Shown here: positions 40,650 through 56,766 of the stretch, in pieces
How the letters are laid out: every line of letters starts with the position of its first letter
Position numbering within the stretch: the stretch's first letter is position 1
Source of the DNA: Deltaproteobacteria bacterium
GTDB taxonomy: Bacteria; Desulfobacterota; Desulfomonilia; UBA1062
Length of the DNA: 64,000 nucleotides
Direction: 5' to 3'
Assembly: GCA_029552245.1 (NCBI GenBank)
Contig: JAKPDW010000077.1
Span: 1-64,000 of the forward strand
Program-made: the position numbers and the translations under genes
Notes under the pieces: model-generated
The model's input: the letters and a program-made list of their open reading frames with translations, nothing else
Told to the model about the DNA's origin: nothing
Databases searched by the model: none

Positions 40650-40965
40650 CCTCGACGGTCGGCAAAGGGCACCCACGGCCTGGTCGCGGGAATCACCGGG
40701 CGGACGCTCGCCCACGCGGGAAGGGACGGGAACGCCTGCGCGGGTCATGCCGAGGGTGACGCGGGCCACATCGCTCGAGACCCACGGCCGGCATCGCTCC
40801 AGACCGTATCCTCGCAAGGGTCATGAACGCTGGTACGCATCCGCGCGCTCCGGGTGCCCGCCCCACCCGGCATGGCGGAGACCACCGCGTTGAACCACGT
40901 CTTCATAAATCCCTCATGATTCTTGCCCGACTATCCGTTATAGAGACTTGAGAGAGATAGTTGCC

Positions 40966-41952
40966 ATGCAAGACACCGACGTTATTATGGCAGGCGAAAG
41001 GGGGGAGGCGCCGCCTTCGAGCCATTCGATGTCGAGAGAGATGTCAAAAGAGAAGAACGCGACAAGGATCCTCATCGTGGATGACGAGCCGGAGACCCTC
41101 GATCTCATCGCCGACTTTCTCGTCGGCGGAGGATTCGAGGTCGCCACGGCCACCACGGGCGAGGAGGCGCTGACCCTCGTCCAGAAGGACCTCTACCACA
41201 TCGCCGTGGTCGACCTCCACCTCCCCGGCATGACGGGTTCGGAGCTCCTCAGGAAGATCAAGAGTTCGAGGAACGATGTCCAGGTCATCATGATCACCGG
41301 TTACGGGACCATCAGGGACGCGGTCGAATGCATGAAACTCGGTGCGTCCGATTTCATAACGAAGCCCATCCTCCCCGACCACCTGAGCCTTACCATCCGG
41401 AGGATCCTCGAGGAGGCGAGGCTGAAGGAGGAGGCGGAGCTCGCGGATTACTACCGCAATCTCTCCCGCACGGACGAGCTCACGGGCCTGTACAACTTCC
41501 GCCACCTCATGACCGTGCTCAAGAACGAGGTCTCCAGGCACCTCAGGTACAACCGGGTGCTCTCTCTGGGCATGATAGACATCGACGACTTCAAGATCTT
41601 CAACGACACCAAGGGTCACGAGGAGGGAAACGTTCTCCTCGGCAGGCTCGCGCACGTCTTCAAGCACAATACCCGCAACTGCGACATCCTGGCCCGCTAC
41701 GGCGGCGAGGAGTTCGTGATCCTCTTCCCCGAGACCTCCATCGAGGAGGCCTCGGTGGTTTCCGCACGCATCCTGGCCACGGTGGAGGCCAACCTCGGCA
41801 TCACCGTCACCATAGGGCTCGCGAGCCTGCCCGAGCACTCGAGCGACGCCTCGGAGCTCATCAGGATGGCGGACACCGCCATGTACTGGGGTAAGGCGCG
41901 CGGCAAGAATCAGGTGGTCCTCTACGAACCGTCGATGGACACGTGCAGGTAG
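40966..41952 (+). CDS. Receiver-GGDEF diguanylate cyclase
   Basis: A PleD/WspR-like protein of about 328 residues: receiver domain (about 33-150, D39-D40, phosphoacceptor D83 in VVDLHLPGMTG, K in TKPI), a coiled linker (LEEARLKEEAELADYYR) and a GGDEF domain (about 165-325) starting RTDELTGLYN. The active site is GGEEF at 246-250, so cyclase activity is expected, and the RxxD inhibitory site RNCD (237-240) stands five residues before it. It makes c-di-GMP in the cytoplasm. The ATG at 40966 is preferred; TTG 40948 and later ATGs are possible. The 3' end overlaps the convergent J-protein gene by 31 bases. Confidence 0.93.
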   Translation: MQDTDVIMAGERGEAPPSSHSMSREMSKEKNATRILIVDDEPETLDLIADFLVGGGFEVATATTGEEALTLVQKDLYHIAVVDLHLPGMTGSELLRKIKSSRNDVQVIMITGYGTIRDAVECMKLGASDFITKPILPDHLSLTIRRILEEARLKEEAELADYYRNLSRTDELTGLYNFRHLMTVLKNEVSRHLRYNRVLSLGMIDIDDFKIFNDTKGHEEGNVLLGRLAHVFKHNTRNCDILARYGGEEFVILFPETSIEEASVVSARILATVEANLGITVTIGLASLPEHSSDASELIRMADTAMYWGKARGKNQVVLYEPSMDTCR

Positions 41953-45312: not shown

Positions 45313-46074
45313 ATGGGAGAGGGCGCGAGACCCCTCGAACACGCGGACCGGGTTGCCGAGGGCCCCGGAGGCCTTTTTGCCGACCCACCGGAGAAGGGCA
45401 TGAGCCTCGTGGAACTCATGGTTGCGCTCGCGTGCGCCTCGCTCGTGACCATCGGCCTGTACCACCTGTACCTCGTGTCCTCCACGTTCTACAAGGCCGC
45501 GAGGGATACCTGGTCCTGCATGCAGTCCCTGAGGGCGGCCTCGCTCGAGCTGCACACGGACCTGGCGCAGGCTGCGTGCCTCATGCCTCGCAGCCTGGCG
45601 TTCAGGGTCACGTCCAACGGTCTGTTCATAGCCGGCATACCCGTCACCTCCCAGCACCCGGGGATCCAGGTCCACCCGGTCAAGGCCCCGCCGTACTACG
45701 CCGTCATCGCCGAGACCGGCGGGGCGGCCTTGACGCTCGACACCGTGGATATCGACAGTGACGGCAGGCCGGACTTCTGGGCCTTCCTGGGGGTCATCAC
45801 CGACACGTCGGCGGGCGTCGTGTCCGGTTCGTACCGGCGGGGTTCCCTGCGCGTACCCATCGGCCATCCGGCCGACGTGCGCGCCGGCGAGCGGATCGTG
45901 CCCGCCGTCCACTACGAGCTCAAGCCGGACGGTCTCTACAGGAACTCCCAGCTTCTCGCCGAGGCGATCACGAGGTTCGAACCCCGCGCACTCGGGGGAG
46001 ATCTCTCCATCTTTCTGGAGGCCGCCTCTCATGAGGTTTCAAAACACGTGCACTTCCGCTTTCCCGTCAGGTGA
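45313..46074 (+). CDS. Type IV prepilin-like minor pilin (PilW/MshO-like)
   Basis: A 253-residue prepilin. The leader is unusually long (29 residues, ending PPEKG), followed by the mature N-terminus MSLVELMVALACASLV with the conserved Glu at +5 and a hydrophobic helix. The body is beta-rich with few recognisable features, including two or three cysteines. The length and the LVELMVALA start resemble the minor pilins PilW/MshO. AGGAGG lies six bases before the ATG, which supports the long leader. The 3' end overlaps the next gene by 44 bases. A prepilin peptidase is required but not encoded here. Confidence 0.85.
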   Translation: MGEGARPLEHADRVAEGPGGLFADPPEKGMSLVELMVALACASLVTIGLYHLYLVSSTFYKAARDTWSCMQSLRAASLELHTDLAQAACLMPRSLAFRVTSNGLFIAGIPVTSQHPGIQVHPVKAPPYYAVIAETGGAALTLDTVDIDSDGRPDFWAFLGVITDTSAGVVSGSYRRGSLRVPIGHPADVRAGERIVPAVHYELKPDGLYRNSQLLAEAITRFEPRALGGDLSIFLEAASHEVSKHVHFRFPVR

Positions 46075-47083
46075 GCGCGGCTTCATCCTTGCGCTCTGCC
46101 TCGTCTTCCTCACCGCAACGATAGCCCTGACCCTCGCCGCCGCCTCCCTGGCCCTCGTCCACCTCAAGTCGGCGGGTGCCTTCGCGGACATCCTCGGACG
46201 CACCCTGCTCGCCGGTGAAGGTGACGATGCGAAGCGGACATCCACCTTCCTGGGCGCGCCGGAGGGTTGGGACCACATCCACTTCTCCTCGGTACTCGTC
46301 GAGACGAGGACCGAAGGCGCCTGTGCATACTCCATGCGCGTCATGCAGAGCCAGCCGTGCTCGCCCATCCTTCCCATGGATCTTGTCCCGGCCCGATCTC
46401 CTGGCATCCTGGTGCTCCTGGACGACTCGCAGCTCATGCGCATCTCGTCGGGTTTCGACTACGAGCCCCAGGCACTCTACCTCAAGAACGCGGCGGGACA
46501 GATCGTGCGTGTCTCAGGCTGCAGCGAGATCGCATCGAGCCTTGCGACCACCGCCGGCACCTTCTTCAGGGGTGATTTCGGGAACAGCCACGAACGCGCC
46601 CCCACTGGCTCCTCCCGCACGGGCGCCATGTCGTGCTGGACGTTCGCCCTCTCGAACGTCTACCACCTCCTTGCCGGCCTCGATCATGCCTGCTTCGGGC
46701 TGGAGAGCACCTCAGGCGGCTTGAGGGCCCCCTTCTCCCCTTCTCCCGGCCCCATCACCAGGGTCCTCGCCTCGGCCTGTCCCACGGCGCCTGAGGCTCC
46801 CCTGGCGGAGGCGCTCTTCAGGGCGATCGACAGGTTCAACGATCCCAGGCTCGAACCCAGGCATATCGTGGTCGCCACGGCCGGGATCCCCCTCTCGGAC
46901 GGGGACTTGCCCGGCTGGCTCAGGGACTACGACAGGGACGGGGATCCCATGGACACCGCCGTCGAAGGTGAAGGGTCCCACTGCCTGGACGACGTCGCGG
47001 CATACGCACGGTCCCGGGGCGTCAGGGTGCACGTGATCGGTCCCGACACACCCCTTCTCCGGGCTGCGGCCTCAAAGGGCTGA
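46031..47083 (+). CDS. PilX-type prepilin N-terminus joined to a PilY1-like VWA domain
   Basis: A 350-residue protein. Residues 1-16 are a leader ending GERG; the following FILALCLVFLTATIALTLAA is a PilX/PilV-type transmembrane helix lacking Glu+5. Residues about 123-345 resemble the von Willebrand A region of the pilus-tip adhesin PilY1: GILVLLDDSQLM (MIDAS-like, second Ser missing), DYDRDGDP (299-306, calcium-loop pattern), GSHCLDDVAAYARSRGVRVHVIG. The frame stops with TGA exactly where VWA domains have a Gly-rich stretch (AAASKG-stop-GMF), and the following gene continues in the same frame. See findings. Confidence 0.75.
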   Translation: MRFQNTCTSAFPSGERGFILALCLVFLTATIALTLAAASLALVHLKSAGAFADILGRTLLAGEGDDAKRTSTFLGAPEGWDHIHFSSVLVETRTEGACAYSMRVMQSQPCSPILPMDLVPARSPGILVLLDDSQLMRISSGFDYEPQALYLKNAAGQIVRVSGCSEIASSLATTAGTFFRGDFGNSHERAPTGSSRTGAMSCWTFALSNVYHLLAGLDHACFGLESTSGGLRAPFSPSPGPITRVLASACPTAPEAPLAEALFRAIDRFNDPRLEPRHIVVATAGIPLSDGDLPGWLRDYDRDGDPMDTAVEGEGSHCLDDVAAYARSRGVRVHVIGPDTPLLRAAASKG

Positions 47084-47086
47084 GGC

Positions 47087-48175
47087 ATGTTCATGCCCAC
47101 ACCCGAAGGCCTGGCGCCTGCGGGTGTCACGGCGAGCCTCCCGCCCGTCGTTCACCCAGGCGGGGTGATCCACCTCCTGAACGCGGGAGGCAGGCTCGAC
47201 GTTTCGGGGGTGGGCGCCGACGTGTGGTCACGGGCGCGGCGGTCCGTGGCCGATCCCGGCGAGTGCTTCGCCTGCCAAGACATCGTTCTCAGGGGCGCGG
47301 CCCGTTCCGTCGCGCTCTCGGGACGCATGCTCGCGTGCACCACCTCGAGGGATGCCGCCGTCCTGATCGACCTCGCCGGAGGCGGCATCGAGTGGCTCTT
47401 CGAAGGCGCAGGAGGGGTCGTCTCGATCAGGAAAGACCGGGTGCTCGCAGGCCCGAACGCCTCGGGCGACCTTTCGTCCGTGGCATGGGGATCTGGACGC
47501 ATCTGGAGCCGGAAGGCCTCGTCCTGGGACGCATCGGCATCCACGGTCTACGTGGCGGACGGGGCTTCCCTCACCGCCGTGGGCATCGACGACGGAGAAC
47601 CGGTTTGCAGCATCGATGCAGGCCACGAGATCACGGTCGTCAGGTACGACCCGGTAACGGGCGAGGTGGCTGCCGGAACGTCCGACGGGCTCGTCCTGGG
47701 TTTCGACGCCGATCTGTCGTGGTCGAGCGTGCTTGCCACGGGTGACGAAGAAGCGGTCACAGACGTCAGGTCCTTCACCCTTTCCGGCAGAAGGCACGTT
47801 CTCGCGGTCACCCCCGACAGGGTCCACCTCTTTTCTGGAGCAGCCTTGACCTGGTCCGCATCCATCGCTCCCGGCCGCATCACCGGGGTCACCGTCATGG
47901 ATGCCAAGGTGTACCTGGTCGTGTGGCGGGTCCAAGACGGTATCCGCGGCGCGGACGAGGGCGTCTCCGCTCTCGTCGTGCTCGACGCGTCCACGGGCGG
48001 AATCCTGGAGGATACGACCCTGTGCACCGGCGTGGCGTTCGGCCCGAGCCTGGATGCAGACGCGGGGCTCCTGCGCCTCATCTCGTTCTCGGGTCAGCCC
48101 CTCGAGATCGATGTCTCGTCCCTCCCCCTCCTCACACCCCGCTTCATGGGCATGAAGATCCGCGGGGTCCCTTGA
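47087..48175 (+). CDS. Beta-propeller protein, in frame behind the VWA gene
   Basis: A 362-residue protein with no signal sequence of its own. Repeating beta-blade-like stretches (LSGRMLACTTSRDAAVLIDL, ASTVYVADGASLTAVGIDDGE, EVAAGTSDGLVLGFDADL, RRHVLAVTPDRVHLFSGAAL, KVYLVVWRVQDG, ALVVLDASTGGILEDT) suggest a WD40/PQQ-type propeller, as in the C-terminal half of PilY1. ATG 47087 is the second codon after the TGA of the preceding gene, in the same frame, with no good ribosome-binding site. Without read-through it would lack any export signal, although it should be extracellular. Confidence 0.7.
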   Translation: MFMPTPEGLAPAGVTASLPPVVHPGGVIHLLNAGGRLDVSGVGADVWSRARRSVADPGECFACQDIVLRGAARSVALSGRMLACTTSRDAAVLIDLAGGGIEWLFEGAGGVVSIRKDRVLAGPNASGDLSSVAWGSGRIWSRKASSWDASASTVYVADGASLTAVGIDDGEPVCSIDAGHEITVVRYDPVTGEVAAGTSDGLVLGFDADLSWSSVLATGDEEAVTDVRSFTLSGRRHVLAVTPDRVHLFSGAALTWSASIAPGRITGVTVMDAKVYLVVWRVQDGIRGADEGVSALVVLDASTGGILEDTTLCTGVAFGPSLDADAGLLRLISFSGQPLEIDVSSLPLLTPRFMGMKIRGVP

Positions 48176-48569
48176 GGGCCGACGCATCAGCGCTCACGCC
48201 CCGTCCCAGGGATGCCGGCCGGGAAGGACAATCGGGGAGACCTTGCGGGTCACCCTCCCATCTCCCGCTCCGCGCACCCATGCCATGGGCCGAGACCCTC
48301 ACAGGGCACCCCGCATGCACACCACCTTTCCCTCCCGACATACAGCATGCCACGGATGTCTTGTGAGACTGCAGAGCCCGTCCCGACCTTTCCCGTGGGC
48401 ATGACTGTCCGAAGGTCAGGCGGCGACGCTGTGCACCTGGAGGAGGGCGGGAAGCCCCTTCTCGTGCGGGTGTATTCAAGTGCGCTCACCCCCGTTCCGA
48501 TATGTCATGCAGGTTTCACCCCCTGCGAGGGTGGGCCCGGCAATGAAAAAGAGAACAGGAGGAACCCAC
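48176..48569. other. Non-coding stretch before the second prepilin gene
   Basis: No gene is supported here. Near the right end, GCAGG/CCTGC and CACCC/GGGTG stems (about 48508-48537) share bases and could form alternative hairpins just before the AGGAGG ribosome-binding site at 48557-48562. No known riboswitch motif was recognised. Confidence 0.35.
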
Positions 48570-49130
48570 ATGGAAAGGTTCAGACGCAAGGATACCAGGG
48601 GTTTCACCCTCGTGGAGCTGGCGCTGGTGCTCGTGATCATAGGCCTGCTCATCACGGGCGTCCTCAAGGGAGAGGCCCTCATCCAGAACGCCAAGATCAA
48701 GAAGCTCGTCAACCAGAAAGACTCGCTGACCGCCGCCTACTACGCCTTCTACGACAGGTACAACGTGTACCCCGGCGACGAGAACCAGGCGAGCATCCCG
48801 CCCAACGACACGCACAACGGCAACCAGGACGGTCAGATCACGGGCAACGAGTACTGGTACCTCTTCGAGGACTTGGTTCTCGCCCAGATCATCAACGGCA
48901 ACTACAACGGGACCGCCAACAGCTGTCCCCAGAACCCGTACGGGAGCTGGGCACAGATCCAGTGGAACGCGGCACTCCAGTCCAACGCGGTCGTGTTCAA
49001 CGCGATCCCGTACGACGCCGCCGAGCAGATCGACATGAAGTACGACGACGGCATTTACAACACCGGTGCCATCCGGGCAAACAGCGCCTACACGACCCAG
49101 ACGAACAAGATCCTCTACTGGCGCATGTGA
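48570..49130 (+). CDS. Type IV prepilin (likely major-type pilin)
   Basis: A 186-residue prepilin with a short leader (MERFRRKDTRG) and mature start FTLVELALVLVIIGLL, including Glu+5 at residue 16. KGEALIQNAKIKKLVNQ extends the helix. The C-terminal globular part is rich in Asn, Asp, Tyr and Gly (NDTHNGNQDGQITGN), a composition seen in extracellular proteins. AGGAGG seven bases before ATG 48570 selects this start over two upstream ATGs. Strong ribosome-binding and its own upstream gap suggest high expression, but which of the three pilins is the major one is not known. Confidence 0.9.
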   Translation: MERFRRKDTRGFTLVELALVLVIIGLLITGVLKGEALIQNAKIKKLVNQKDSLTAAYYAFYDRYNVYPGDENQASIPPNDTHNGNQDGQITGNEYWYLFEDLVLAQIINGNYNGTANSCPQNPYGSWAQIQWNAALQSNAVVFNAIPYDAAEQIDMKYDDGIYNTGAIRANSAYTTQTNKILYWRM

Positions 49131-49300
49131 CCCGCAAGGCACATCCCGGTTCGCCCGGAAAGCCTCGCTCGAAGGCAGGTGCCTTCATCCCGGCGAGGAC
49201 GATCGAGCCCGTCTCGCAGAGACCGGGGCTGTTGCAACCGTGGGAAGATCGCAGCTGAGGAGGCCCCCGGCGAGGAGACGGGGCCCGGCGGAAGGTGGCC

Positions 49301-50935
49301 ATGGAAAAGAAGAGGATCGGAGACCTGCTCAAGGACGCCGGCATCATAGGGGAGCGGGAGATCGGGCTCGCCCTCCTCGAGCAGCGCGCCACGAGGGAGC
49401 GCGTGGGCGACATCCTCCTGCGCCTCGGGCTCGTCACGCAGACCGAGCTCGCACAGGCCATAGCCAGCCAGTGCGGGATCGACTTCCTCGAACTCCGACA
49501 CTTCACGCCCCCGAGAGAGGCCCTGTCCGCACTGCCCGTTCAGTTCGCGCGCGAGCACTCGGTGCTGCCCGTCGGTCTCGAGGATACCACCCTGACCATC
49601 GCGACCAGCGAGCCTGACAACACGCGCGTCATCGACCTCGCCTCCAGGGTGTCCCAGCGGCGCGTCAGGTGCGTCGCCGCGTCGGCCTCACAGATACAGA
49701 AGCACATAGAGAAAGACTACTACCTTCTCGAACACCCCATCGACGAGGAGATCGAGCAGCAGCTCGAGCACGCAAAGTACAACCCCCAGGAGGTCGACCC
49801 CGAGAAGCTCTCCCGCCTCATCATCATGGCCGCGATCAACGCGAGGGCCACGGACATCCACATCACGCCGACGCCCAGGACCACCCAGGTGCACTACCGT
49901 ATCGACGGCATCCTGTACCCCTTCTACACCTTCCCGCTGGATCTCCATAACAGGATCGTCTCCGCGCTCAAGGTCAAGGCCGACATGGACATATCGGAGC
50001 AGAGAAAGCCCCAGGACGGCAGGATCTCCTTCGACTTCCTCAACGAGACCTACGACATCAGGGTGTCGACCCTGAAGGTCGCGCTCGGAGAGAACATGGT
50101 CATGAGGATCCTCTCCGCGTCCGAGGAGCTCTACAACATCAGGAGCCTCGGCCTCGAGGAGTCGGATGTCCTGAGGATCCACGACATCCTCCGCAAACCC
50201 TACGGCATGGTCCTCGTCACAGGCCCCACGGGGTCGGGAAAGACCACCACGCTGTACGCGGCGCTGAGGGAGATCAACGCCATCGAGAAGAACGTGGTCA
50301 CGGTCGAAGATCCCATCGAGTACAAATTCCCCCTCATCCGCCAGACCCAGGTGAACGAGAAGGCCGGATACACCTTCTCGAGCGCGGTCAGGGCCTTCCT
50401 CAGGCAGGACCCGGACGTCATCCTCATAGGCGAGATCCGCGACGCGGACACGGCGTCCATGGCCCTGAGAGCGGCCCAGACAGGGCACCTCGTCCTGTCC
50501 ACGATCCACGCGAACGACTCGGTGGGTGCCGTGCCGAGACTCAAGGATCTCGGGATGATGGACTACATGATCTCCTCTTCCCTCGTTTGCGTGATCGCGC
50601 AACGCCTCGTGCGCTCGCTCTGCCCCCACTGCAGGCAGGAATACCAATCTGGCGAGGACGAGATGCGCATCTTCGGCATCGCCCCGGGCACCAGGCTCTA
50701 CGCCCCGGTCGGATGCCCGAGGTGCATCAAGACAGGGTACCTGGGCAGGACCATGGTCTCCGAGATCCTCGTGGTGACCAAAGAGATAGAACGGCTCATT
50801 TCCACGGGGGCCCACCCCTTCGAGATCCGGGAACGGGCCCTCGAGGAGGGCATGGTGAGCATGGTCGCCGACGGCGCACGCAAGATCCTCTCGGGCAAGA
50901 CGAGCTTCAAGGAGGCGTGGAGGGTGTTGCGCTGA
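49301..50935 (+). CDS. mshE: Type IV pilus extension ATPase with MshEN c-di-GMP-binding domain
   Basis: A 544-residue PilB/GspE/MshE-type ATPase powering pilus assembly. The N-terminus has two 24-residue MshEN motifs, R5-I-G-...-Q28 and R34-V-G-...-Q57, separated by exactly five residues, the layout known to bind c-di-GMP. The ATPase core shows Walker A GPTGSGKT (308-315), the Asp box VEDPIEY, Walker B DPDVILIGEIRD, the His box GHLVLSTIHAND and the four-Cys zinc element (CPHC...CPRC) near the C-terminus. ATG 49301 follows GGAAGG; GTG 49295 is an alternative. It overlaps the next gene by one base (TGATG). Confidence 0.95.
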   Translation: MEKKRIGDLLKDAGIIGEREIGLALLEQRATRERVGDILLRLGLVTQTELAQAIASQCGIDFLELRHFTPPREALSALPVQFAREHSVLPVGLEDTTLTIATSEPDNTRVIDLASRVSQRRVRCVAASASQIQKHIEKDYYLLEHPIDEEIEQQLEHAKYNPQEVDPEKLSRLIIMAAINARATDIHITPTPRTTQVHYRIDGILYPFYTFPLDLHNRIVSALKVKADMDISEQRKPQDGRISFDFLNETYDIRVSTLKVALGENMVMRILSASEELYNIRSLGLEESDVLRIHDILRKPYGMVLVTGPTGSGKTTTLYAALREINAIEKNVVTVEDPIEYKFPLIRQTQVNEKAGYTFSSAVRAFLRQDPDVILIGEIRDADTASMALRAAQTGHLVLSTIHANDSVGAVPRLKDLGMMDYMISSSLVCVIAQRLVRSLCPHCRQEYQSGEDEMRIFGIAPGTRLYAPVGCPRCIKTGYLGRTMVSEILVVTKEIERLISTGAHPFEIRERALEEGMVSMVADGARKILSGKTSFKEAWRVLR

Positions 50936-52149
50936 TGCTTCTCACCTACAGCGCCATGCGGAAGGACGGCACCGTGATCACGTCCTCGGCGGAGTTCGAG
51001 GACATCGAGGAACTCGTCCAGACGCTTTCCGCAAGCGACCTCACGCTCGTCTCGTACAGGCGGCAAACCTGGCCGGGTATCGCCAGGATCATGGAATCCC
51101 TGCAGCCTTCCGTGGGAAGGATGGAGATCGTCGAGTTCTGCGAGTCCCTGGGCTCCATGATCGGGAGCGGTCTCCCCCTCTTGGACTCCCTCGAGACCAT
51201 CAGGGACACGGTCGGCTCGAAGAGGCTCAAGAAGGCGATCGGCGAGGTGATCTCCGAGATCTCCAGGGGGGAAAGCCTCTCGGGGGCCTTCTCCCACCAG
51301 GGCTCCGTCTTTCCCGCCATCCTCGTGTTCTTCTCCAAGATCGGCGAGGAAACGGGAACGATCAGGGATGCGCTCACCAACACCGCTTCCTACCTGAGGA
51401 AGATCGATGCGATCGTCTCGCAGGTGAAGAAGGCCTTCATCTACCCCTCCTTCGTCATGGCATCCATGGGATGCGTGATGATCTTCTGGCTCTTCTACGT
51501 GCTCCCGCGGCTCGTCACGACGTTTCAGGACATGAACGTGCGCCTGCCCGACATCACCTTGTCGCTGGTGAGGGTCGTGGGCTTCGTGCAGGCATACTGG
51601 TACCTCACCCCTGTCCCCCTTGTCCTCGCCGCAGCCGGCCTGTTCTTCGTCATGAAGCTCGATGCAGCGAGGTACGTGCTGACCGCGACGGCCTTCAGGG
51701 TCCCGCTCGTCGGCGACATGCTCAAGTCCTCCATGCTCACGCTCCTCTTCTCGAGCCTCTCGCTCATGCTCAGGTCGGGGCTCACCCTCACCCGGTCCCT
51801 GGACATCCTGCTCAAGCTTCACGGCAATCCCCTCGTCAGGAAGGTCATCACCTCGATCAAGCATGCCACCGCCTCCGGCAGCTCGCTCCTCGAATCCTTC
51901 GAATCGACGGGGTTCTTCGACGCGGTGACGCTCAAGATGGTGAGCGTGGGGGAGAAGACGGGCACCCTCGAGGGACGATTGGGCTACCTTGCCGACGTGT
52001 ACCAGGAGAAGACCTCCCGCTTCGTGGATGCCGCGGGCAAGATGATAGAACCCATGGTCATGATCCTGTCCGGCGGCCTCTTCATCTTCATCGTCGTGTC
52101 CCTCATCGGCCCGGTCTACGACCTCATGTCCCAGCTCGGAGGAGGTTGA
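50935..52149 (+). CDS. Pilus inner-membrane platform protein (PilC/GspF/MshG)
   Basis: A 404-residue polytopic protein with the two repeated T2SSF domains (about 65-190 and 265-390). The first shows FCESLGSMIGSGLPLLDSLE, the second LSLMLRSGLTLTRSLDIL, and each is followed by the GE(E/K)TGT motif (KIGEETGTIRDAL, SVGEKTGTLEGRL). Three membrane segments lie around 165-185, 215-235 and 375-395. It anchors the ATPase and the pilus base. It starts within the ATPase stop codon. Confidence 0.95.
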   Translation: MLLTYSAMRKDGTVITSSAEFEDIEELVQTLSASDLTLVSYRRQTWPGIARIMESLQPSVGRMEIVEFCESLGSMIGSGLPLLDSLETIRDTVGSKRLKKAIGEVISEISRGESLSGAFSHQGSVFPAILVFFSKIGEETGTIRDALTNTASYLRKIDAIVSQVKKAFIYPSFVMASMGCVMIFWLFYVLPRLVTTFQDMNVRLPDITLSLVRVVGFVQAYWYLTPVPLVLAAAGLFFVMKLDAARYVLTATAFRVPLVGDMLKSSMLTLLFSSLSLMLRSGLTLTRSLDILLKLHGNPLVRKVITSIKHATASGSSLLESFESTGFFDAVTLKMVSVGEKTGTLEGRLGYLADVYQEKTSRFVDAAGKMIEPMVMILSGGLFIFIVVSLIGPVYDLMSQLGGG

Positions 52150-52150
52150 C

Positions 52151-52801
52151 ATGCGACCAGTGCACGACACCGGGAGGATTTCTGGGCGGCACGGCGCCAA
52201 GAGCGGCTTCACGCTGATAGAGGTGGCCTTCGTCATGGTGATCCTCGGGCTGCTCATCGGGCTGGGTGCGCAACTCCTCCCCATGCTCGTCAAGCAGAAC
52301 AAGCTCAAGGACAACCGCGTCCTCGTGAAGGAGGCGAAGACGGCCGTCATCGGGTATGCGCTCGCGACCGGCAGGCTCCCCTATGCGAGCGCGAACACGG
52401 GCGGAAACGAGAGCGCAGGCAGGCTGAACGGGTACCTGCCGTGGGCCACCCTCGGCATACCGGGGAAGGACCCCTACAGCACCACCCTGTTCTACGCCGT
52501 CGACTCCCACCTGTGCTCGACGACCTCTGCGGCCCAGCTCAAGACCCGCCTGGCGGACCTCATCTCAGGGACCCTCACCCCCGACCTCTTCAGCGACGGG
52601 ACGAACATCAAGGCGGCGTTCATCGTGCTCTCGGCGGGCGAGGACTTCAGGGTGAACCCGCCGAACGACGACAACAACAACACCATCGTGGATATCTTCG
52701 ACAACAACCGCTTCGCATCGCCGTACGAGCCGTTCACTGCATCCTACGACGACGTCCTCGAGGCGGTGAGCCTCGCGTATCTCCACGGCCTCCTCCCCTG
52801 A
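52151..52801 (+). CDS. Type IV prepilin (MshC/MshD-like)
   Basis: A 216-residue prepilin with a 19-residue leader (ending GAKSG) and the mature N-terminus FTLIEVAFVMVILGLLI, with Glu+5 at position 24. The C-terminal half is rich in Asn/Asp/Thr (NDDNNNTIVDIFDNN) and has one cysteine. The gene begins one base after the platform-protein stop, with GGAGG inside that gene, so it is translationally coupled. Its sequence differs clearly from the other two pilins in the locus. Confidence 0.9.
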   Translation: MRPVHDTGRISGRHGAKSGFTLIEVAFVMVILGLLIGLGAQLLPMLVKQNKLKDNRVLVKEAKTAVIGYALATGRLPYASANTGGNESAGRLNGYLPWATLGIPGKDPYSTTLFYAVDSHLCSTTSAAQLKTRLADLISGTLTPDLFSDGTNIKAAFIVLSAGEDFRVNPPNDDNNNTIVDIFDNNRFASPYEPFTASYDDVLEAVSLAYLHGLLP

Positions 52802-52885
52802 GACCCGCCGGAGACCCCGACCTTATCGTCAAGAATGGCTGGGCGCCTGCCGAAACGATGGGAAACGGCTTCGGGAGAAGCAGTA

Positions 52886-54301
52886 ATGCGCCTTTGGGCT
52901 GCGAGGGGAAAGAAAGGGTACGCCGCGCTCCTCGGCGATGCCGACCACCGTGTCGCGCGGTACAGGATCGAGGGCGGGGCATGCGTGCTCGAGCGCGTCC
53001 AGGTCGTGGACACCCAGACCCTCTGCAAGCTCGCCACGAGACATCCCGGGGTGCGCGTCTGTATCTGTGCGCGGTCGGTCTACTCCGACATCGGAGAGTT
53101 CTCGCGTGTCTCCGAGGCCGCGGCCAAGGCCCACATCAAGACCACCGTCGACAAGATCGGCCTGTTCAGGGAGGAATACCGGATCTCCGCCATAAAGCTC
53201 GAGGATACGGACGATCTCAAGGGGAAGTATTCTTTCCTGGTCCTGCCCCTGTCCAACCTGAGCCCTCTCGGCATGCTCGACGAGGACAACGCGGTGGTGG
53301 AGGCGTGCTGCCCGGTGGAGGCGGCCCTGGCCGAGACGCTCAGGCTCTTCGAGAAGTCCATGGCCCTGCTCGTGGCCCAAGACGCACGGCATATCCGCAT
53401 CATCGCAGCCAAAGACGGGGTCATCTATTACCTGATCACCGTGAATGCCGCAGAATCCTTCGACCCCGTCGCGGAGACCGTATCGGGCATCAAGGAGATC
53501 ACCTCCCTGCTCGCCGGCACCCACAGGGAGAAAGTCGCCAAGATCTATCTCCTCGGCGCCGGGGAGGTTTCCCCATCCGATCTGGAGAGGCACGGCGTGG
53601 AGGTGGCAGGGGTCCCCGCGGCATTCGCTCCCGACACGGGCATCGAGTATGCATGCCTGTTCGGGACCGCGATGGGTCCCCGGTACGACTTCACCACCGA
53701 CAGGCTTCGAACCACCAGGACGCTCGTGAGGTTCTCACGCATCTCCATGGTGTGTTCCCTTCTCATGATCGTCATGAGCGCCGTGTGGCTTGGTCTCGCA
53801 TCCATCAACCATTCGAGCGCACGTTTTCTCGAGGCCAGGGCCGTGCAGGAATCGCGCAAGGTCTCCACCCTCGTGGGACGGCTCGAGAAGAGTGCATCCA
53901 CGGTGAACCTGAACGTGGACGTCTCCAGGATCAACGAGCTCATGAAGACCTACCGGGACTTCCAGAGCGAGCCGAGGTTCGATTCCCTCGTCGAGGCGGT
54001 CTGTGAGCTCATGCCCGAACACGTCTATCTCACGAGGGTCGCGCTCGAGAGAGGTACCCAGGGCCAGGGGGGCCAATCCCCCCGAGTGATCCCCGAGGCT
54101 GTCGAAGGCCAGAGGACGGCGCTGTCCAAGTCGTTCGGCCTCACCGTGGAAGGGCTCGTGAACGTCGCATACCCCGATTCGAAGACCGTCTTCTCGAGGA
54201 TCGTGTCCAGGATGAACTCCACGTACCAGGTCAAGAACGCCTCCTTCAGGCACACAGACGATACGAGCTGGTTCAAGCTCGAGTGCGAGGTGATGCCGTG
54301 A
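52886..54301 (+). CDS. PilM-PilN fusion-like pilus assembly protein (MshI-like plus PilN)
   Basis: A 471-residue protein. Residues 1-275 resemble the actin-like ATPase PilM/MshI (RLWAARGKKGYAALL, HIKTTVDKIGLF, AQDARHIRIIAAKDGVIYYL, KIYLLGAGEVSPSDL), although the nucleotide-binding motifs are poorly kept. A membrane helix follows at about 286-307, then a coiled-coil stretch and a periplasmic domain ending in a ferredoxin-like fold (FGLTVEGLVNVAYPDSKTVFSRIVSRM), typical of PilN. Normally these are two genes, here one chain. ATG 52886 is chosen from GGGAG upstream. It overlaps the next gene as GTGA. Confidence 0.82.
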   Translation: MRLWAARGKKGYAALLGDADHRVARYRIEGGACVLERVQVVDTQTLCKLATRHPGVRVCICARSVYSDIGEFSRVSEAAAKAHIKTTVDKIGLFREEYRISAIKLEDTDDLKGKYSFLVLPLSNLSPLGMLDEDNAVVEACCPVEAALAETLRLFEKSMALLVAQDARHIRIIAAKDGVIYYLITVNAAESFDPVAETVSGIKEITSLLAGTHREKVAKIYLLGAGEVSPSDLERHGVEVAGVPAAFAPDTGIEYACLFGTAMGPRYDFTTDRLRTTRTLVRFSRISMVCSLLMIVMSAVWLGLASINHSSARFLEARAVQESRKVSTLVGRLEKSASTVNLNVDVSRINELMKTYRDFQSEPRFDSLVEAVCELMPEHVYLTRVALERGTQGQGGQSPRVIPEAVEGQRTALSKSFGLTVEGLVNVAYPDSKTVFSRIVSRMNSTYQVKNASFRHTDDTSWFKLECEVMP

Positions 54302-54693
54302 GGTACTTCAAGGCTGCCGTGGCGCTCGGCCTCCTGGGCGCGCTCTTGCTTACCGTATCGGTCACGCTGCACCGCCAGAGCGTCCGGAACCTCTCGCGGG
54401 AGAAGGCGAGACTGGCCTACCTCACTACCATGGCCGGCCAGACGGCCGTGTACGAGGAAAAGCTCGAATCGGTCAAGAAGACCATGCCGAAGCTCGAGCT
54501 CCTCGCGGCCGGCGGGTCCGCCCAGATCGACTACGAGATCAGCATGACCGACAACGACCTCTCGCGCCTCATGGAAAAGACTAGGGACACGTACGCAGAC
54601 GGGATCTTCTTCCTGGAAAGCGCCGTTGCGGAGAGCACCTCCTTCGGAATCTCGGTGACCATGAAGGGCTTCAAGCTCGGGGGGAACCCGTGA
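54298..54693 (+). CDS. PilO/MshJ-like pilus assembly protein
   Basis: A 131-residue bitopic protein: a membrane helix (about 5-24, AAVALGLLGALLLTVSVTLH), a coiled coil (about 28-65) and a small alpha/beta domain with FFLESAVAESTSFGISVTMKGF. The layout and position between PilN-like and PilP-like genes identify it as the PilO-type alignment-complex subunit, although it is shorter than usual PilO (about 200). The GTG start overlaps the previous stop by four bases; the stop overlaps the next start likewise. Confidence 0.78.
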   Translation: MRYFKAAVALGLLGALLLTVSVTLHRQSVRNLSREKARLAYLTTMAGQTAVYEEKLESVKKTMPKLELLAAGGSAQIDYEISMTDNDLSRLMEKTRDTYADGIFFLESAVAESTSFGISVTMKGFKLGGNP

Positions 54694-55154
54694 CGATGAA
54701 GATAGACAACAGGCTCCTCGTGCTCTTCGCCCCGCATGCCGCGGCGCTGGCCGCCGTCGCCGCGGTCCTCTTCCTGATGCCGGCCGAGGCGCCCTACCGG
54801 GTCGAGAGACCGGAGATCCTGACGTTCATCGATCAACTCCACTCCGTGACCTTGACCGAGAGGCAACCTGAGGGCCGCTCGGGAGTCAAGGACGTGTTCA
54901 GGCACGAGTGGACCGTGTGGGGTCACGTCCCTGGGGAAGGCATGCAGGCGCGCGGCAATCCCACGGAGAAGGAAAGCGTCGAGGTAAGCCTCGTCGTGGA
55001 CGAGGGACCTGACGGTTATTGCATCATCAACGGAAAGAGGATGGAGACAGGTCACAAAGCGGACGGTTTCACCGTCGAATCCATCCAGAAAGACAGGGTG
55101 ACCATCGTCCGCACAAACGGGACCAGGGAGACATACCATGTCAAGCCATACTAG
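54690..55154 (+). CDS. PilP/MshK/GspB-like pilus assembly protein
   Basis: A 154-residue protein with an N-terminal membrane helix (about 11-30) and a periplasmic domain. The C-terminal part (GYCIINGKRMETGHKADGFTV, then ESIQKDRVTIVRTNG) has the HR-domain pattern of GspC/GspB/MshK proteins that contact the secretin. The start is GTG 54690 (GTGA overlap) or ATG 54696. The stop lies 17 bases inside the secretin gene. Confidence 0.78.
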   Translation: MTMKIDNRLLVLFAPHAAALAAVAAVLFLMPAEAPYRVERPEILTFIDQLHSVTLTERQPEGRSGVKDVFRHEWTVWGHVPGEGMQARGNPTEKESVEVSLVVDEGPDGYCIINGKRMETGHKADGFTVESIQKDRVTIVRTNGTRETYHVKPY

Positions 55155-56766
55155 GGGGATCACAGCGTTGACCGTCTGTCTTACGTCCCTTGCGCTCCTG
55201 TGCTCGTGCGCAGTGGACAGGGCCATGAAGCGCGAGTCGCCCGTCATCGAGAAGGAGATGGCGAGTAAGGCGCAGGTCGAACCGAGGCCGCAGGCACCCA
55301 TGAGGGTGGAGCCCAAGGAAGCGCCCCACGACCCGCTCAAAGGCAAGACCATAACGCTCACCGCCAAGAACGCTCCTTTCTCGGAAATCTACGCGGCCAT
55401 CGCCCAGAAGGCGGGGCTCGACCTCGTGATCGATTCACGGCTCATAAGCGCCCAACCCGAGCTCTCCACCACGGCCGCGCAGGTCCCATCCGGCGTGCAA
55501 GGCCAGTCGATGCAGCCTGCGGGGGCGCGGCGGTCCAAGATCGAGGTGCCGACGGTGTCCATCACGTTCACGAAGACGCCCCTGGACGAGGCGCTCTCAA
55601 GCGTCGACCATGCGCTCCACCTCTTCTCCAGCGTGAAGAGGAACACCCTGCACGTGAAGGGCACGGAGTCGAGGACGTTTTCGCTGACCTTCCTCTCCTC
55701 GCAGAAGGAGACCACGATCAGGGTGGGCGGCGACGTGATAGGGAGCAGTTACCTCGGATCGTCGTCGGGATCGTCATCGGGGTCGTCAGGGTCGTCCTCG
55801 GGCGATACGCTCAAGGGAGAGTTCTCGATCAAGGACACCGTCACGCCATCCTCGAAGGACATCTTCGCCCAGGTCGAGGAGACGGTGAAGTCATGCCTCA
55901 GCCCGTACGGGACCTATTCCCTCAACAGGGCGCTGGGATTCCTCGAGATCAACGACATGAGGGACACCATCGAGCGGATCGACGCCTACATCAAGACCCT
56001 CAAGGCGCACTACAACTCCCAGGTGCTCATCACGGCCAAGGTCATCGAGGTCTCGCTCAAGGACACGAGCAGGTACGGCATCGACTGGAGCAGCATACAC
56101 GGAACCATCAGGGACTACGCCTTCAACCCCATCAGCCAGCACCTCTCCCTCGACACCAGCACGCTCACGCCGGCCCTCGAGATCCAGGTGGGGTCGTCCA
56201 AGCACGGCTTTGACGCCGCCTTGAACGCCCTTGCCGAGTTCGGGGACATCAAGGTGCTGTCGAACCCCCGCATCAGGGTGACGAACGGCCAGAGCGCCCT
56301 CATCAGCGTCGGGACGAGTTCCTCGTACATCCAGGAGATCAAGGTCACGACCACGAGCGTGGAAGGCGGGTCGACGGTCATCACGCCCGAGGTCACCGTG
56401 GGGTCCATCTTCGACGGCGTCATGCTCGGCGTCGTGCCGAGCATCGACCTCGACAACTACGCGGTCAACCTGAGCATCACCCCGATCAAGAGCCGGATCG
56501 TGACGCTCGAGGAACGCACCGTGCACGACAACCTCTACACGCTGCCCAAGGTGGACCTCGAGGAGGTCTCGTCGCAGATCAGGGTCAAGAGCGGGAACAT
56601 CATCGCGCTCGGGGGCCTCATCAGCAAGGACCTTGCGACCGAGAACACGAAGGTCCCCATCCTCGGCGACATCCCGTACCTCGGCTACCTGTTCAAGCAG
56701 GAGAGCAAGTCCGTGCGGACCGCCGAGCTCGTGATCCTCCTGGAGCCCGTGATCCTCTCCGAGTGA
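55138..56766 (+). CDS. mshL: Pilus secretin lipoprotein (MshL/PilQ family)
   Basis: A 542-residue outer-membrane channel subunit. Lipoprotein signal with C24 in LLCSCAV. An N0/STN-like domain (KTITLTAKNAPFSEIYAAIAQKAGLDLVID) and a second N-domain follow, interrupted by a Ser/Gly low-complexity linker (about 204-222). The C-terminal secretin core (about 290-540) includes VLITAKVIEVSLKDTSRYGIDW, FGDIKVLSNPRIRVTNGQSALI, VKSGNIIALGGLISKD and VPILGDIPYLGYLFK. Lipid modification and size fit MshL better than PilQ. It is the last gene of the pilus operon. Confidence 0.93.
   Translation: MSSHTRGITALTVCLTSLALLCSCAVDRAMKRESPVIEKEMASKAQVEPRPQAPMRVEPKEAPHDPLKGKTITLTAKNAPFSEIYAAIAQKAGLDLVIDSRLISAQPELSTTAAQVPSGVQGQSMQPAGARRSKIEVPTVSITFTKTPLDEALSSVDHALHLFSSVKRNTLHVKGTESRTFSLTFLSSQKETTIRVGGDVIGSSYLGSSSGSSSGSSGSSSGDTLKGEFSIKDTVTPSSKDIFAQVEETVKSCLSPYGTYSLNRALGFLEINDMRDTIERIDAYIKTLKAHYNSQVLITAKVIEVSLKDTSRYGIDWSSIHGTIRDYAFNPISQHLSLDTSTLTPALEIQVGSSKHGFDAALNALAEFGDIKVLSNPRIRVTNGQSALISVGTSSSYIQEIKVTTTSVEGGSTVITPEVTVGSIFDGVMLGVVPSIDLDNYAVNLSITPIKSRIVTLEERTVHDNLYTLPKVDLEEVSSQIRVKSGNIIALGGLISKDLATENTKVPILGDIPYLGYLFKQESKSVRTAELVILLEPVILSE

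Follow-up and report, generated by a model that had tools for sequence, protein, structure and literature searches.

A family-specific modular minor pilin carrying a PilY1-type VWA domain and a BamB/PQQ-type propeller, interrupted in one genome by a private in-frame TGA

The window, meaning the whole 64,000-nt stretch of DNA analysed here, contains a reading frame on the + strand that begins at ATG 46031, runs for 350 codons and meets a TGA at 47081-47083. Beyond this codon the same frame stays open until the TGA at 48173-48175. The original prediction described this interval as a composite of minor pilin, VWA domain and propeller divided by the TGA, and it is borne out: the coordinates are exact, the prepilin helix, VWA domain and propeller are all there, the relatives carry them as one protein, and the composite here would have about 714 residues. 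The fusion gene is preceded by a PilW-like gene, which overlaps its start by 44 nt here and in many relatives; for nearly all orthologues a PilW-like gene lies ahead of the fusion, either overlapping it or beside it. The filament machine on the 3′ side is complete, with two pilins, an MshEN-type ATPase, GspF, three linker proteins and a secretin. The features are as follows.

45313..46074, + strand: PilW-like minor prepilin with E5 present (GMSLVELM); the start codon is at 45313 or later
46031..47083, + strand: 5′ part of the fusion gene, with leader, helix, pilin module and PilY1-type VWA domain up to the TGA
47081..47083, + strand: private in-frame TGA within the final strand of the VWA domain; the residue in relatives is G (15), K, N, E, T or A
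47084..48175, + strand: 3′ part of the same ancestral gene, with the VWA end, linker and BamB/PQQ-type beta-propeller, without an export signal of its own
47084..47143, + strand: hairpins 3′ of the UGA, (a) GGCAT-GTTC-ATGCC with its loop 5 nt after the UGA and (b) one with the loop CUGGC at +27
48480..49130, + strand: type IV pilin-like protein (GFTLVE), with which the adjacent filament machine begins
49295..50935, + strand: assembly ATPase (T2SSE) with an MshEN c-di-GMP-type domain
50923..52149, + strand: GspF/PilC platform protein
52151..52801, + strand: second pilin-like protein
52835..54301, + strand: 488-aa protein with one central TM segment and no family match, in a putative PilM/N position by gene order
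54283..55154, + strand: two small proteins (54283-54693 and 54690-55154) in putative PilO/PilP-like positions, the second with a weak T2SSB match
55138..56766, + strand: secretin

The intact protein begins with a class III (prepilin) leader and a hydrophobic N-terminal helix, which spans residues 15-45 in the predicted model. The glycine at -1 (residue 17) is found in 18 of 19 aligned relatives and is followed by W, F or Y at +1. Glu5 is absent, residues 21-22 being A/V/M/I and L/Y/M/H/C and never E. The N-terminal stretch, at about residues 18-120, resembles PilX and GspK in having a helix without Glu5 and a small beta module. The Pfam N_methyl profile does not match the fusion, and PF14341 (PilX_N) gives a weak match (E 0.051) in one of 19 members.

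The second module, at about residues 123-357, is a VWA domain. Alignment with the VWA domain of PilY1 by hhalign returns a probability of 97% (E 1.1e-10), and 97.5% (E 5.5e-12) for the VWA part alone. D131 and D132 are invariant, and the MIDAS is partly degenerate. The stop-bearing copy has Leu at MIDAS position 135, where relatives have a small or acidic residue. A DxDxD motif at 299-303 is likewise invariant, usually with G next to it, and looks like a calcium loop, which suggests a putative calcium role. The stop-bearing copy (46031-48175) also lacks the cysteines that are conserved in 18 of 20 aligned sequences, at columns 273 and 638.

The propeller occupies residues 385-712 and is PQQ_2/BamB-like by profile in 12 of 19 members. 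It shares one frame with the VWA domain in the 20 full-length orthologues. A model of it built from three sequences has a core pLDDT of 75-95 and can be superposed on the propellers of BamB and of WD40 proteins (Foldseek E 1e-12; VIA Z 22-24, rmsd about 3); this model omits the first 78 residues of the propeller, and its blades number seven or eight. The full-length AlphaFold model from three sequences is poor (mean pLDDT 42). Searches of the PDB by sequence gave weak WD40, BamB and BatB matches and nothing stronger, and there was no match in the anti-phage library. The label of PilY1-like, given in the original prediction, is correct for the VWA domain and not for the propeller: none of 19 members matches the PF05567 propeller profile at E values up to 1, hhalign of the fusion propeller against the C-terminal half of PilY1 gives a probability of 2%, and the genome has a true PilY1 at another place. 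Judged by motifs and profiles, the fusion family is a conserved combination of an E5-less PilX-like pilin, a PilY1-type VWA domain and a BamB/PQQ-type propeller.

A whole-genome search located the fusion, without an internal stop, in 22 of the 23 further genomes belonging to this taxonomic family, four of the 22 being from the same genus. The single family genome without it is 77% complete. Among the 22 relatives, 20 encode the fusion in one full-length frame of about 710 residues, and two are cut solely by contig ends. One of these is broken off at the contig end and the other (G001) is spread over two contigs. A split gene in G001 was ruled out, as the two contig-end pieces overlap with identical sequence and the frame stays open, so this is one gene. 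No fusion is found in the 18 genomes of the sister family. In a sample of 297 genomes from the phylum, full-length matches are confined to family members; outside the family nearly all matches are short and cover the VWA end, in frames of up to 1500 aa, together with one propeller-only match.

The orthologue comparison proposed in the original prediction shows that the TGA is not conserved: all 22 relatives have a sense codon. The column holds Gly in 15 relatives, as had been expected, K in two, N in two and E, T and A in one each, and never Cys or a stop. The residues around the stop read AAASKG-TGA-GMFMP here, as against AAxKGGGxFMP in relatives. By hhalign the stop falls inside the conserved end of the PilY1-type VWA domain, with AAASKG-x-GMFMP aligned to ADKTHGNGKYF of the family's own PilY1. 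As the stop lies within the last VWA strand and not in a linker, it does not make a tidy domain split. The open continuation of the frame is far beyond chance, since both halves are one protein in the 22 relatives.

The 363 codons after the TGA are free of other stops and indels. They have a codon score of 0.20, as against 0.24 for the 5′ half, and the other frames are negative, in a scan that also ranks shadow frames high. The stop-bearing lineage accounts for 8.5% of the tree length of the VWA domain and 9.6% of that of the propeller on a fixed tree, both within the spread of the other lineages. By tree-length shares and codon score, no relaxed selection or extra decay is seen 3′ of the stop. 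The operon of the stop-bearing genome is somewhat more divergent as a whole, rather than in the fusion specifically, and the neighbouring operon genes are intact.

The gene is very probably an ancestral one-chain modular minor pilin which, in the sequenced genome, carries one private nonsense codon that is not programmed. Since the TGA is private and 22 relatives lack it, it is most likely either a recent true mutation, which is favoured, or an error from the consensus or a mixture of strains. One base change was among the three causes considered in the original prediction and is the best reading of them. In the second form of this explanation the gene of the organism is unbroken and the TGA exists in the consensus alone, through sequencing, assembly or strain mixture. 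The restriction of the TGA to one MAG is consistent with such an artefact, as are the unbroken state and normal evolution of the remainder of the gene. An artefact-like run also closes at least one contig of this assembly: contig C30 of the genome ends in about 22 C (L021 2712-2733), which resembles a short-read artefact. Against this, a short-read consensus seldom contains isolated substitution errors, and real nonsense mutations are common in adhesin genes. An artefact is possible, though rather unlikely.

The original prediction also allowed for a true split and for read-through, and neither is supported. In a true split, termination at the TGA would be followed by reinitiation at ATG 47087, with the propeller as a separate second subunit. 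This ATG lies 3 nt past the TGA and a purine-rich stretch (AAAGGGCTGAGGCATG) stands ahead of it, but the break falls inside the last VWA strand, and the N-terminus that starts at ATG 47087 contains no signal peptide, in agreement with the earlier claim that the propeller half has no export signal. As no relative has a stop or a split there, an ancestral or shared split is refuted, and a private one is hardly credible. Ordinary read-through or programmed suppression would give little full-length protein, or a phase switch of tip identity. The TGA column is occupied by many different residues, so whichever amino acid was inserted could be accepted, and the 3′ half has not decayed. However, no relative shares the stop, which argues against an evolved programme, and inspection by eye shows no switch-like repeat tract at it. 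TGA is also the terminator of 10 among 12 reading frames checked, that of the fusion itself being one of them, which marks it as an ordinary stop; a reassignment of TGA in the genetic code is ruled out on the same count. Suppression of this kind is very improbable. The variant in which the UGA is read efficiently by Sec-tRNA or a near-cognate tRNA, to produce a short pilin-VWA and a long pilin-VWA-propeller form whose ratio sets the adhesiveness of the tip, is likewise very improbable.

Decoding of the UGA as selenocysteine by SelB and tRNA-Sec would yield a full-length selenoprotein adhesin. A search for selA, selB and selC had been suggested with the original prediction, and tRNA-Sec (74.5 bits) and SelB (339.7 bits) were located in the genome, both over the cut-off, so the UGA is decodable in principle. 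The five-pair hairpin GGCAT-GTTC-ATGCC noted after the TGA is present as a local fold, and a longer fold replaces it by a bigger hairpin. A strong hairpin has its loop 27 nt from the UGA. In the bSECIS model the loop lies 16-37 nt from the UGA, with a G among the first two loop positions (PMC13188914). Neither hairpin conforms to this rule, as the CUGGC loop at +27 has no early G and the other loop lies at +5. Such stability is not unusual, as 53 of 1553 stretches of 79 nt taken from the window with matched GC content fold at least as well. The window is rich in GC, and a hairpin resembling the consensus arises at 35% of positions chosen arbitrarily in it. None of the 22 homologues has Cys or Sec at the aligned position, and the residues found there (G, K, N, E, T, A) lie in a VWA strand without redox context. 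A selenoprotein is thus extremely improbable.

A recent nonsense mutation in a one-chain fusion, the preferred reading, implies that the product as written would be 350 residues long, without the last VWA strand and the propeller. The protein is for this reason probably non-functional in the sequenced strain. In the intact state the fusion gene would probably be co-transcribed with the overlapping PilW-like minor pilin gene. The prepilin peptidase would process the fusion, after which its PilX/GspK-like helix without Glu5 would insert into the filament. From its homologues the fusion is predicted to sit beside the PilW-like pilin at the tip of a type IV filament, which the adjacent machine would build where that machine is present. 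The PilY1-type VWA domain and the BamB/PQQ-type propeller would form a head held covalently at the tip, whereas published tip models point to PilY1 normally being held non-covalently by PilX. The head could be presented for attachment or force sensing, as in PilB, CpaL and PilY1, and a role in adhesion is likewise suggested by these homologues.

The filament machine adjoins the fusion in most relatives, and several genomes carry the fusion without an adjacent machine, so the adjacent machine is a candidate for presenting it. In one of these (G004, 98% complete) the PilW-like gene and an intact fusion are kept at the same place (L029 7298-10118), and directly after them comes the PHP gene, which in the window lies beyond the machine. 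Nowhere does this genome have a close copy of the machine, the best ATPase being 39% identical and no secretin being detected at E 1e-20. Another machine may serve the fusion.

The stop-bearing genome has a canonical fimU-pilW-pilV-pilX-pilY1 operon on another contig (C27; L077 3848-9287), with intact frames and a comEC-like gene alongside. The canonical PilY1 begins MRNTKTFAILFIAAASVLLSTQARA, its own Sec-type signal, whereas the fusion begins with a prepilin leader. The presence of this separate operon indicates that the fusion would be a second tip protein and not a replacement for PilY1.

Modular pilins with a grafted VWA domain have been described. PilB of Streptococcus sanguinis is a modular minor pilin proposed to lie at the pilus tip, in which an N-terminal pilin module is followed by a VWA domain, as in the fusion; it differs in that it has no propeller, its VWA domain is not noted as PilY1-derived and it belongs to a monoderm T4aP (PMC8179133). 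CpaL of Caulobacter crescentus is also a minor pilin fused to a VWA domain, for which a tip location and surface sensing are proposed; it belongs to a Tad pilus, and a propeller is not described in the available part of that source (PMC12607857). PilY1/PilC shares the order of VWA domain and beta-propeller, the homologous VWA domain and a gene position after the minor pilins. It is, however, a non-pilin with a Sec-type signal and a PF05567 propeller, neither of which the fusion has. Minor pilins without Glu5 (PilX/GspK) have been proposed to sit at the top of the minor-pilin complex, with PilX holding PilY1 there (PMC7541494, PMC10191384). The fusion resembles them in its prepilin helix without Glu5 and its position after pilW, but PilX is short and binds PilY1 non-covalently, while the head of the fusion is covalently attached.

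The fusion of a pilin to a PilY1-like tip protein was presented as novel in the original prediction. This is correct in part, as a VWA domain on a minor pilin is already known from PilB and CpaL. A pilin fused to a PilY1-like propeller was not found in the literature searched, which was mostly open-access; VWA-pilins alone were found. Since VWA-minor pilin fusions are known, the architecture is not unprecedented and belongs with the modular VWA pilins, as a conserved variant specific to the family. The stop itself teaches little, being a private and ordinary event. What carries weight is that a whole bacterial family joins what is in effect PilX and a PilY1-type VWA domain to a different propeller, beside canonical PilX and PilY1. 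The fusion lends natural support to the model in which a minor pilin without Glu5 sits at the very tip and carries a VWA adhesin, and it offers a single-chain handle on tip mechanics.

A GGDEF response regulator is encoded near the operon at 40948-41952 of the window and is conserved in the locus of the relative without the adjacent machine (L029 3023-4000). Together with the MshEN-type ATPase (49295-50935), it gives a hint of c-di-GMP control of the filament.
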